Shown here piece after piece: positions 22,681 to 28,709 of a stretch of DNA of 64,000 nucleotides. The stretch is from Flagellimonas pacifica (GTDB lineage Bacteria > Bacteroidota > Bacteroidia > Flavobacteriales > Flavobacteriaceae). The notes below the pieces were generated by a model, which saw only the letters and a program-made list of their open reading frames with translations, was not told the DNA's origin and searched no databases. Where the stretch lies: the NCBI RefSeq assembly GCF_900215465.1, contig NZ_OBEH01000001.1, positions 310,001 to 374,000 on the forward strand, read 5' to 3'. Both the position numbers and the translations under genes were made by a program. The first letter of the stretch is position 1; the number at the start of each line of letters is the position of its first letter.

Positions 22681-23592
22681 CTACGTATTGAGGAACCTTT
22701 TCTTTACCATGCCTCCTTTGGTGTCATTAATACTGTTCATGACCACAAATGCCTTTTTATCTAACTTTTCAATTTCGATATGCAGCTTTCTAATTTCCAG
22801 ACGAGTGATCACGGTATAAATAACATCATATTCATTATGCCCCCCATTTTTACCATAGCCTCCCTTTGCTTGATAAATTGTAAGCCCCCTGCCCATTTTC
22901 CCAATGATCATTTCCCGAATTTCCTCGCTTTTATCAGATATAATGGTGACTCCCGTATATTCCTCAATCCCTTCCACAACAAAATCCAAGGTTTTTGAAG
23001 CCGCCAAATAAGTGAGCATAGAATACAAAGCAGCCTCAATAGACAATAGATAAGCCGCCGCCATAAAAATGACAACATTGACCAGAATTATGACATCACC
23101 AATTTTTACACCCCATTTTCTGCTAAGAAATATGGCCAAAACTTCTGTGCCATCAAGAACACTGCCTCCTCTTATTGACAATCCTATACCGGCCCCAAGA
23201 AAGAAACCTCCAAAAACAGCAACCAACAACTTATCCTGTGTCACCTCCGGAAAATCAATCGCAACCAACACGAGGGCCAATCCCAAAATGGCAATAATGG
23301 CCTTTATGGCAAATTGACGCCCAATTGCTTTATAAGCCATAAAAATGAAAGGCACGTTCACAATAATAATTAAGAGCCAAAGCGGTATTTGCGTGATTTC
23401 TGTAATCAAAAGGGAAATACCAGTAACTCCTCCATCAATAAATCTATTTGGCAATAGAAAACTCTCCAACCCAAAGGCTGCCGAAAAAATTCCCGCAGCT
23501 ATAAAAAATGCATCTTTTAAATATATGTTGATGGACATCAAGTTTAAACCATCCATTTTAGGAATTTCTTTCTTCTGTTTTTCTTTAGTCAT
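22681..23592 (-). CDS. YitT-family membrane protein (DUF161/DUF2179)
   Basis: 303 residues: six hydrophobic helices (residues about 22-205) with GIFSAAFGLESFLLPNRFIDGGVTGISLL and GAGIGLSIRGGSVLDGTEVLAIFLSRK, typical of YitT/YpjC proteins, then a soluble DUF2179 domain (IREMIIGKMGRGLTIYQAKGGYG, IYTVITRLEIRKL). These are thought to be integral membrane regulators or transporters; function is not established. It begins 10 bases after the TolC-like gene, so it may belong to the exporter operon. Confidence 0.85.
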   Translation of the reverse strand: MTKEKQKKEIPKMDGLNLMSINIYLKDAFFIAAGIFSAAFGLESFLLPNRFIDGGVTGISLLITEITQIPLWLLIIIVNVPFIFMAYKAIGRQFAIKAIIAILGLALVLVAIDFPEVTQDKLLVAVFGGFFLGAGIGLSIRGGSVLDGTEVLAIFLSRKWGVKIGDVIILVNVVIFMAAAYLLSIEAALYSMLTYLAASKTLDFVVEGIEEYTGVTIISDKSEEIREMIIGKMGRGLTIYQAKGGYGKNGGHNEYDVIYTVITRLEIRKLHIEIEKLDKKAFVVMNSINDTKGGMVKKRFLNT

Positions 23593-26359: not shown

Positions 26360-28030
26360 CTATCTTTCATTTATCAATTTTCCATTTTCAACGGTAATTA
26401 TGCGCTTGCAACGTTCTATCCATTTGGGATTCTCACTTACAATTACCAAGGCCCATCCGTTGGCACTATCCGTTAAAAAGTCCATGATCTCTGTAGCTTC
26501 TGCATCGCCAAATTGGTCCAACGGATCCTTTAGGATCAAAAGTTTGGGTTTTGCAACTATACTTCGTGCCAAAACAATCTTTTTGGAAACGGTGTAGGGG
26601 ATTTGTCTCCCTTCAGGGTATAAAATCGTATTCAGTCCTTGGGGCTGTTCTTTGACAAATTGGGTCAATCCGGTTTTTTCCATGGCCCAGTATATATTTT
26701 CCCTTGGAATATCTTTATTTCCAAAGGTGATGTTGTCGAGAATGGTGCCTTCAAAAGGTGATTCTTCACTCAACGATTGCCCAATTTGGAAACGGTAGTC
26801 ATTAAGATTTACCCCTTGCAGCGCTACATCGTCAACAAATATTTTACCCTGGTCAGGTTCTAGAATTCCTGCTATTAACCGCAATAAAGTTGATTTCCCG
26901 GAACCACTTGAGCCTTGCAACAAGGTTGTGCTGGATGGTATAATTGTCAAGGAGATATCATCAACTATTTTTTTTCCGCTATCTGGAACTTTATAAGAAA
27001 CATCTTGAAGTTCAATGGTGAATCCTTCTCTCTTGGCAAAAGGATTCTCTCCATTTTGCGGTTCCAATTCCTTATCCACAACCTGGCCCAGTTTTTCAAG
27101 GGATGTCAATAGATCATAAAAGGTTTCCAATCCTAAAATCATCTTTTCCACGGAGCTTATCACCAAAAGAATGATGATTTCCGCGGCTACAAACTGCCCA
27201 ATATTCATTTCTTGGTTCAACACTAAAAGTCCCCCTATCAAAAGAAGTCCGGCCGTTACCAAAACCTTAAACCCGATCATCTGCACAAATTGCAACACCA
27301 ATACCTTAAAATGACTTTCACGGGCATCTAAGTAATTGGCAACCAAAGTGTCATTTTTATCAATGGCATGGGTCGTCTTTCCAGAAAGTTTAAAACTCAC
27401 CAAGGATCTGGCAATTTCTTGAATCCAGTGAGCCACTTTGTATTTGTTTTTGCTCTCGTCTAAACTAGTCTCCAATCCTCGTTGTGCAGTAAACTTGAAA
27501 ACAACATAAATGAGCAAGAGCAGGAGTAGGCCATAAATAATAAAAAAGGGATGATAGAAAGACAGCAGCAAAAGCCCAAATACTATTTGCAGGAATGCAG
27601 CAGGGAAATCTATCAGAATTTTTGATAATCCTTTTTGTATGGTCAATGTATCAAAAAACCGATTTGCCAATTCTGGAGGATAGTAATTGGTCAGTTGACT
27701 CATCTTAATTTTGGGAAACCTGTAGGCAAACTCAAATGAGGCCCTAGTGAATATTTTTTGCTGGATATTCTCAATGATCCTGATTTGCATCAACTGCAAT
27801 GCCCCAACAAAAGCAACTCCAAGCGTGACCAACGCGACCAAAACAATCCATGAGGTACTTACCTGAGCCCCTTGTATTAAATTGATTATCACCTGAATCC
27901 CCAATGGAAGTGAAAGATTTACCACACCGGCAAAGACGGCATAATAAAAAACTTGTAACACATCCTTCTTGTCCAAGGTCAACATCCCTATAAGGCGCTG
28001 CCAAGCAGTTAGAATGTTTTTTTCAGCCAT
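26360..28030 (-). CDS. ABC exporter with degenerate ATPase motifs
   Basis: 556 residues: about six membrane helices (residues 25-300) fused to a nucleotide-binding domain (about 335-556), the HlyB/type I exporter layout without a peptidase domain. Walker A is intact (GSSGSGKST, 373-381). The others are not: Walker B is LLILKDP (501-502, normally DE), the LSGGQ signature is IPYTV, the Q-loop Gln is replaced (about 420) and the switch His is Glu533 (VSEN). The protein may bind but hardly hydrolyse ATP by the usual route. It sits between TetR and HlyD. Confidence 0.86.
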   Translation of the reverse strand: MAEKNILTAWQRLIGMLTLDKKDVLQVFYYAVFAGVVNLSLPLGIQVIINLIQGAQVSTSWIVLVALVTLGVAFVGALQLMQIRIIENIQQKIFTRASFEFAYRFPKIKMSQLTNYYPPELANRFFDTLTIQKGLSKILIDFPAAFLQIVFGLLLLSFYHPFFIIYGLLLLLLIYVVFKFTAQRGLETSLDESKNKYKVAHWIQEIARSLVSFKLSGKTTHAIDKNDTLVANYLDARESHFKVLVLQFVQMIGFKVLVTAGLLLIGGLLVLNQEMNIGQFVAAEIIILLVISSVEKMILGLETFYDLLTSLEKLGQVVDKELEPQNGENPFAKREGFTIELQDVSYKVPDSGKKIVDDISLTIIPSSTTLLQGSSGSGKSTLLRLIAGILEPDQGKIFVDDVALQGVNLNDYRFQIGQSLSEESPFEGTILDNITFGNKDIPRENIYWAMEKTGLTQFVKEQPQGLNTILYPEGRQIPYTVSKKIVLARSIVAKPKLLILKDPLDQFGDAEATEIMDFLTDSANGWALVIVSENPKWIERCKRIITVENGKLINER

Positions 28031-28709
28031 ATGTTTTTGGGTTTAGGGCTCTAAAGACCAAATCAGTAAAATATTCTGTTGGAGTGATGTTATCATTACA
28101 ATCTGTAAGCATTGGAAAATGCTCTTTCAAAAAATATTGGTGTAATGATCCTTCAAGAACGGTACTCGCCAAACTTGAAGGATAGGGGTAGCTTTCATTA
28201 ACGGCCTTAATCATTTCATGTAACCGATTAACCAGCCTCTTATAGATTACAAAATAACCTTCCTTATTTTCCTGATCCACTTCTTTGGTCAAGTAAGATT
28301 TGGAGTATTCATTGATTACTATTTTGTTGAGTAGCACCTCATTAATATGGGAAAAAGACACATCCTCTTTTACTGTTTGTGTTAGAATTTCAATGGCCCT
28401 TTTCAATTTTTCGTTTTTATCCGTCATACCTGTTGTGGCAAACACCATCTTATACTCCACCCAGCCCCAATACCAAGAAGCCAAATAGAGCAGCAGTTTG
28501 TGTTTGTTTTCAAAATATCGATAAATAGAGCTTTCATTGGATTTGATGCACACCCCAAGTTTTTTGAACGTAAAGCTTTCAAAACCCATTTCGTCAATCA
28601 TCAAAATACTTTGTTCAATAATCCGTTTCCCCAAATCTGAAGATTCAGGGTCTTTGACATAGATTTTATCATTGATTCCTATACGAATGGATTGCATTAA
28701 TCTTTCCAT
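28023..28709 (-). CDS. TetR-family regulator of the exporter operon
   Basis: 228 residues. The helix-turn-helix region lies at about residues 27-72 (IIEQSILMIDEMGFESFTFKKLGVCIKSNESSIYRYFENKHKLL), typical of TetR; the rest is a helical ligand domain unlike any I can name. It is the first gene of the operon and overlaps the ABC start by 8 bases. Three phased palindrome-like sites lie just upstream, the first overlapping its -7 box, so autorepression is likely. Confidence 0.88.
   Translation of the reverse strand: MERLMQSIRIGINDKIYVKDPESSDLGKRIIEQSILMIDEMGFESFTFKKLGVCIKSNESSIYRYFENKHKLLLYLASWYWGWVEYKMVFATTGMTDKNEKLKRAIEILTQTVKEDVSFSHINEVLLNKIVINEYSKSYLTKEVDQENKEGYFVIYKRLVNRLHEMIKAVNESYPYPSSLASTVLEGSLHQYFLKEHFPMLTDCNDNITPTEYFTDLVFRALNPKTYG

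Follow-up and report, generated by a model that had tools for sequence, protein, structure and literature searches.

How is an ABC exporter powered when its nucleotide-binding domain (NBD) has lost the residues of a functional ABC ATPase? The question is raised by an operon of the marine bacterium Flagellimonas pacifica, which lies in the 64,000 nucleotides of contig NZ_OBEH01000001.1 analyzed here (positions 310,001 to 374,000, in the following called the window). An initial annotation of this DNA had described the ABC protein as an exporter with an intact Walker A motif and several lost catalytic motifs, and had offered another NBD subunit, a different mechanism or a binding/regulatory role as possible explanations.

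Organization of the locus

Four genes, coding for a TetR-type regulator, the ABC protein, a HlyD-type adaptor and a TolC-type channel, follow each other on the minus strand of the window (Table 1). The ABC gene, which encodes 556 amino acids, was found where the initial annotation had placed it. The tight packing claimed for the block is real as well: the TetR gene overlaps the start of the ABC gene by 8 bp, a gap of 5 bp lies between the ABC stop and the HlyD gene, and the HlyD and TolC genes overlap by 17 bp. In the family, HlyD and TolC follow the ABC gene in 154 of the 157 degenerate-class loci with enough flanking sequence, and a TetR-profile match lies upstream on the same strand in 122 of 162 such loci. 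A gene for a YitT/DUF2179 membrane protein (22681-23592, minus strand) begins 10 bp past the TolC stop, and the operon may end with it; a profile made from its product matched 26 open reading frames among the first 215 loci.

Table 1. Features of the ABC exporter operon, with positions in the window
Feature	Position	Strand	Basis
TetR-type regulator, first gene of the operon	28023..28709	-	ORF; TetR_N 21.5 bits, just below the Pfam cut-off of 24
ABC half-exporter, TMD and degenerate NBD, 556 aa	26360..28030	-	ORF, Pfam, alignment
HlyD-type periplasmic adaptor, 450 aa	25002..26354	-	HlyD_3 46.1 bits; TIGR01843 96.5 bits, below its cut-off of 208.65
TolC-type outer-membrane channel, 471 aa	23603..25018	-	OEP 116.5 bits
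Transmembrane domain (TMD), residues 1-325, six long predicted helices, kept in every family class	27056..28030	-	Pfam ABC_membrane, model helices, family tables
K255, TM5	27266..27268	-	Lys or Arg in 18/18 NBD-less representatives
E284, TM6	27179..27181	-	Glu in 18/18 NBD-less, 88/89 degenerate and 10/10 Asp-Glu/His representatives
E295, TM6	27146..27148	-	NBD-less: Glu 16/18, Asp 2/18; degenerate 81/89; Asp-Glu/His 10/10
Degenerate NBD, about residues 336-552	26375..27025	-	Pfam ABC_tran; secondary structure retained in model
V348, replaces A-loop Tyr	26987..26989	-	Alignment
Walker A GSSGSGKST, residues 373-381, intact	26888..26914	-	Alignment
S421, replaces Q-loop Gln	26768..26770	-	Alignment
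IPYTV, residues 477-481, replaces LSGGQ	26588..26602	-	Alignment
Walker B LLILKDP, residues 497-503, Asp replaced by K501, catalytic Glu by D502	26522..26542	-	Alignment
E533, replaces H-loop His	26432..26434	-	Alignment

The degenerate NBD of the window protein

By its fold the protein is a type IV ABC exporter, encoded in a type I secretion-like operon. An ABC_membrane TMD (35.4 bits, Pfam cut-off 28) is followed by an ABC_tran domain (61.6 bits, cut-off 25). A structural model computed from 38 sequences has strands and helices throughout the NBD; its quality is modest (mean pLDDT 71.8, pTM 0.45). With this model Foldseek matched type IV exporters, including TmrAB, PCAT1, HlyB/D and PrtD, at E values of about 1e-26; the TM-scores of 0.41-0.48 say little on the domain arrangement, given the modest model.

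The motif columns were set by alignment to solved ABCB transporters and to six exporters from the own genome. They are correct, because at these places all six paralogs have the H-loop His, a Walker B Asp (followed by Glu in five and by Asp in one) and a signature that is or resembles LSGGQ (three with LSGGQ and one each with LSGGE, VSTGQ and LSSGQ). In the window protein the Walker B Asp-Glu, the LSGGQ, the Q-loop Gln and the H-loop His are all missing, so that every motif loss named in the initial annotation is borne out by the alignment; the loss of the A-loop Tyr has to be added to its list.

Fixation and selection among near relatives

Fixation of these residues was judged from the 92 distinct proteins of the loci L001-L110. 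The near relatives include Allomuricauda/Flagellimonas, Maribacter and Aquimarina. K501 and D502 are each present in 91 of the 92 proteins. E533, which was to be checked for fixation together with them, is found in only 60, while Q occupies the position in 21, A in 5 and other residues in 6. Lys379 of Walker A is kept in 70 and replaced by Arg in 22 proteins, and at position 380, where the window protein has Ser, 9 proteins have Asn and 4 have Ala. The Walker B substitutions are fixed and the His position drifts; Walker A, although intact in the window protein, is no constant of the family and less fixed than had been assumed.

None of the first 126 loci compared keeps the catalytic set, and the homologous frame is present in all of them. 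Close homologues with canonical motifs, which would have marked the window gene as a decayed copy, were not among them; Asp-Glu together with His was seen only in genomes of other classes of the phylum. Nei-Gojobori estimates of dN/dS for 28 distinct pairs have medians of 0.015 for the TMD and 0.037 for the NBD, and the NBD value is the higher one in 27 of the 28 pairs, with a maximum of 0.075. The NBD is therefore under selection, though weaker than that on the TMD. The degenerate NBD is real and conserved, in agreement with the earlier statement that it does not result from a frameshift, and hydrolysis of ATP by the known mechanism, which had been denied to a homodimer of the protein, is very unlikely. 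From these sequences we strongly infer that the protein does not hydrolyze ATP by its own NBD.

A faster change of the NBD than of the TMD is not confined to the degenerate members. Within one genus the mean identity of 30 window-type proteins is 0.91 for the TMD and 0.79 for the NBD, the NBD being lower in 435 of 435 pairs; for a canonical exporter, taken from a different set of 30 genomes of the same genus, the values are 0.861 and 0.879, and the NBD is lower in 58% of 435 pairs. Among the Asp-Glu/His proteins with a TMD identity above 0.45 the NBD identity is also lower in every pair, with a smaller gap. At TMD identities of 0.55-0.65 the NBD identity amounts to 0.51 in the Asp-Glu/His pairs and to 0.35 in the degenerate pairs. 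Below a TMD identity of 0.35 the NBD of Asp-Glu/His pairs is the better conserved domain (0.39 vs 0.32).

Erosion of the NBD across the phylum

At E 1e-60 the protein had matches in 65 of 99 relatives and in 138 of 395 genomes of the order, at E 1e-50 in 97 of 395 genomes of the phylum; with the TMD alone as query 196 of 395 genomes of the class gave matches (E 1e-35). Altogether 285 loci were classified. Six of them (L224, L225, L228, L232, L246 and L248), in which the NBD seemed to be lost, are cut by contig ends and were dropped before counting, which left 256 distinct proteins.

In this sample, which is uneven in that 110 of the 285 loci (L001-L110) are near relatives of the window and NBD-less loci were specifically sought, Asp-Glu and His are retained by 11 proteins, the NBD is degenerate in 222 and truncated in 5, 9 proteins consist of the TMD only and 9 are TMD-HlyD fusions without NBD. 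The Walker A pattern is broken in 9 of the 222 degenerate proteins. As the class label rests on three residues (Asp-Glu and His), it is to be noted that 6 of the 242 degenerate loci still have Asp-Glu and 7 of the 242 still have the His. Among the representatives of the Asp-Glu/His class none of ten has the Q-loop Gln, and the textbook LSGGQ is also missing.

In the fusions the TMD runs directly into HlyD within a single open frame of 749-784 amino acids, and a fusion of a transporter TMD with a periplasmic adaptor is an unusual architecture. The loci are L162:4896-7178, L163, L164:773-3058, L227, L229, L235, L238, L242 and L245. In the TMD-only loci the HlyD frame begins -100 to +64 bp from the end of the TMD frame, and therefore no NBD gene fits in between. 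HlyD and TolC follow, where the flanking sequence suffices, in 9 of 9 TMD-only, 3 of 3 fusion, 2 of 2 truncated and 7 of 9 Asp-Glu/His loci. Several NBD-less genomes are assembled in few contigs (G344 in one, G356 in two, G262 in four, G922 in six), which makes an assembly error unlikely.

Further variants were observed in the family. Two groups of proteins, L230, L231 and L233 on the one hand and L278 and L279 on the other, have shortened C-termini with traces of the NBD, which score 46-71 bits against the NBD profile, and are candidates for an NBD deletion in progress. In L206, which belongs to the same bacterial family as the window, Walker A is lost and the NBD is partly recognizable. Many members, including 9 of the 11 Asp-Glu/His loci, carry about 120-260 amino acids of open frame before the TMD (for example L180, L187, L190, L197 and L234); in the four of these extensions that were scanned (L180, L187, L190, L197) no Pfam match was found.

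Phylogeny of the NBD losses

A tree of 122 representatives was calculated from the columns of the TMD alone. In it every NBD-less or truncated row falls on the degenerate-class side. The TMD-only rows have one origin (support 100/99), whereas the fusions as well as the truncations have two each, and a single origin of the fusions was seen in 0% of 200 bootstrap trees. Joining all NBD-less rows in a single clade is rejected by the AU test (p-AU 0.0145), while joining only the two fusion groups is not (p-AU 0.161). There are at least two independent full losses of the NBD, and three on the best tree. Three proteins labeled degenerate (L195, L198 and L201) fall within the Asp-Glu/His part of the tree. 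The nearest neighbor of the TMD-only clade is L187, which has a degenerate Walker B and shares its bacterial family with three rows of that clade. That family holds the degenerate NBD of L187 and the TMD-only proteins L156, L157 and L247 in separate genomes, and therefore the deletion of the NBD could be studied there.

Taken from this family context, transport independent of ATP is the best explanation for the window protein, and we regard it as probable. The different mechanism, a mere guess in the initial annotation, becomes the leading reading because there are versions of this operon with a truncated NBD, with a deleted NBD, or with the TMD fused to HlyD, which suggests an energy source other than ATP for the pump. 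Three other ways in which the exporter could work have to be weighed against it.

Possible remaining use of ATP

The first is that ATP drives the pump in a non-standard way, either by binding and release of the nucleotide at Walker A or by very slow hydrolysis at a rearranged Walker B. Of 89 degenerate representatives 77 have the Walker A Lys, the P-loop glycines are conserved, the order E-D is found at positions 501/502 in 63 of the 242 degenerate loci, and the dN/dS of the NBD is with about 0.04 low. However, the lineage of the window itself has K501 and lacks the A-loop Tyr, and among its relatives Walker A is altered by K379R in 22 of 92 and by S380N/A in 13 of 92 proteins. Moreover the operon is kept where Walker A is broken (9 distinct proteins) and where the NBD is gone (18). 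We consider such a use of ATP improbable, though of the three alternatives it is the one that survives best. A nucleotide may still be bound by the window NBD and have some role, as the purifying selection on this domain and the frequency of the Walker A Lys in the degenerate class allow.

Search for an NBD in trans

Alternatively, a separate ABC ATPase or a canonical half-transporter could energize the TMD in trans, in a heterodimer or by a shared NBD as in some importers. A donor would be available, since the own genome contains 41 PF00005 matches, some of them two per protein. A canonical partner half-transporter, which had been proposed earlier as something to look for, did not emerge: the own genome holds no close paralog of the window protein, the best-scoring one having 24% identity, and the operon contains no second ABC gene.

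The genomes with NBD-less members were searched with the NBD of the nearest relative that bears one, namely L187 for the nine TMD-only genomes, L277 for six and L122 for three fusion genomes. The L187 NBD is near to the TMD-only clade and too distant for a fair test of the fusion clades, to which L277 and L122 are nearer. In none of the 18 genomes, among them G1021 with a completeness of only 80%, was a displaced NBD of the family found. The best matches reached 104 bits (in a fusion genome) and 101 bits (in a TMD-only genome) with L187, 88 bits with L277 and 64 bits with L122. With 24-31% identity and frames of ordinary exporter length the top matches are level with ordinary exporters. In control genomes that still have the family NBD the scores were 208 and 189 bits with L187 (G146), 150 and 141 bits with L277 (G970, G993) and 321 and 243 bits with L122 (G645, G543). 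Both the canonical partner in the own genome and the displaced family NBD in the NBD-less genomes were dropped as candidates, as the searches gave no evidence for them. These searches used NBDs of the family, and an unrelated donor would lie outside their reach. The loss of conservation at the coupling tips of the NBD-less members, described in the next section, would be unexpected if another NBD docked there. Energizing in trans is in our view unlikely, and more so than the non-standard use of ATP.

Conservation of the TMD and its membrane charges

For the TMD, 200 subsets of NBD-bearing rows, matched roughly, served as the reference for the 18 NBD-less rows. The z-scores obtained overstate the significance and are only indicative, because the 18 rows are related and derive from two or three losses. 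Conservation is lost in these 18 kindred rows at the tips of ICL1 (z -5.9) and ICL2 (z -4.4), the usual sites of NBD contact, and is unchanged in TM1, TM2, TM5 and TM6 (|z| < 1). Of the remaining segments the elbow (+2.6) and the cytoplasmic part of TM3 (+7.1) rise, and TM3 (-1.9), TM4 (-2.1), TM4-cyt (-2.6) and TM6-cyt (-2.4) fall slightly. Of three pairs of NBD-less TMDs only L162-L163 is usable for dN/dS, with a value of 0.061; the two others (0.178 and 0.433) are near saturation (pS ~0.70).

In addition to the TM5 and TM6 residues in Table 1, K296, D306, E87, K133, K196 and K313 are each present in all 18 NBD-less representatives; in the degenerate representatives K296 is found in 84 and D306 in 88 of 89. 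E284, E295 and K296 are missing from the six paralogs of the own genome. Since the two glutamates occur in all ten Asp-Glu/His representatives, their role may be structural or related to the substrate rather than to protons.

The third alternative is that the protein is not an active pump at all, and that its ABC-derived part connects HlyD with TolC as a scaffold, a valve or a gated conduit. The direct fusions show that TMD and HlyD can act as a single inner-membrane unit, which would fit such a role. But the four unchanged helices and the charges of TM5 and TM6 are as conserved as in the NBD-bearing members, which seems more than a plain anchor would need, and in other systems HlyD brings a membrane anchor of its own. 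We give this possibility only a small chance, below that of an NBD in trans. A decaying pseudogene or a sequencing error, finally, is suggested by nothing but the joint loss of several motifs and was excluded, as hardly conceivable, by the frame kept in 126 of 126 loci, the strong purifying selection and the same substitutions fixed across species.

A proposed model for ATP-independent export

Transport without ATP thus stays the preferred reading. The operon would encode a three-part exporter, consisting of an ABC-type TMD, the HlyD adaptor and the TolC channel, that works without ATP hydrolysis by its own NBD. The NBD of the window protein would be a selected, non-hydrolyzing accessory whose probable function is to clamp or gate the coupling helices and which perhaps holds a nucleotide as a static ligand. 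Power would come from another source. More weakly, and by analogy with SbmA/SLiPT and NBD-less MsbA, we infer that this is most likely the proton-motive force, acting on the charged residues of the helices TM5 and TM6.

SbmA is a known natural case of an ATP-driven pump that has become ion-driven. The present family might be a second natural lineage of the ABC fold which, independently of SbmA, switched from ATP to the proton-motive force, here inside a three-part exporter that spans the envelope and with the intermediates still alive; we put this forward tentatively, as something somewhat short of an even chance. The living series would lead from the Asp-Glu/His NBD over the degenerate NBD, the broken P-loop, the truncated and the deleted NBD to the TMD fused to the adaptor.

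How an ATP-driven pump is converted into an ion-driven one is an open question between primary and secondary transport. With a single operon type and graded intermediates across one phylum, the order of the losses, the replacing residues and the need for the NBD become directly testable. If the reading is true, a large set of genes that are likely annotated as ATP-driven exporters is mislabeled, and a tripartite exporter can work without an ABC ATPase.

Comparison to known systems

No publication on this exporter family came up in the open-licence PMC literature, as judged from search results and the opening lines of abstracts. Neither the window protein (E up to 0.01) nor the TMD-only protein L156 (E up to 0.1) matched the SbmA/BacA family, for which Pfam presumably contains a model.

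The gene set ABC-HlyD-TolC is shared with the type I secretion exporters HlyB, LssB and PrtD. The best NCBIfam matches of the window protein are LssB, NHLP and HlyB, and all curated cut-offs are missed by a wide margin (LssB 178.5 vs 693.1, HlyB 162 vs 725.55, PrtD 136.1 vs 510.15). Unlike these exporters, the window protein has lost the catalytic NBD motifs, and it has no N-terminal peptidase-like domain, the TMD match starting at residue 30. With the exporters that have one degenerate site (TM287/288, TmrAB, TAP, CFTR and MRP1) it has in common a conserved and selected nucleotide site that would hydrolyze poorly. In these proteins the degenerate site is paired with a catalytic one (PMC7756269). 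As no partner was found for the window protein, both sites of its homodimer would be dead.

Among the closest systems are also the SLiPT peptide transporters (SbmA/BacA), which are ABC-exporter TMDs without NBD that lost the NBD in evolution, have lost the coupling helices and carry membrane glutamates (PMC13316013). SbmA needs no NBD and uses the proton gradient by means of these glutamates, and its authors inferred the loss of the NBD from a YddA-like ancestor (PMC13316013). In contrast, the family described here is a different lineage, an exporter operon with HlyD and TolC; it has abundant intermediates with a degenerate NBD and some TMD-HlyD fusions, and while the window protein has an NBD, 18 of the 256 distinct relatives have none. 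E284 and E295 are conserved in TM6 in all classes and may, by analogy, take part in proton coupling. For NBD-less MsbA (MsbA-MD) proton-coupled transport by the TMD alone is described (PMC4979069). MsbA-MD, which is less efficient than full-length MsbA, and LmrA-MD are engineered truncations, whereas the loss of the NBD in the present family is natural and stable.
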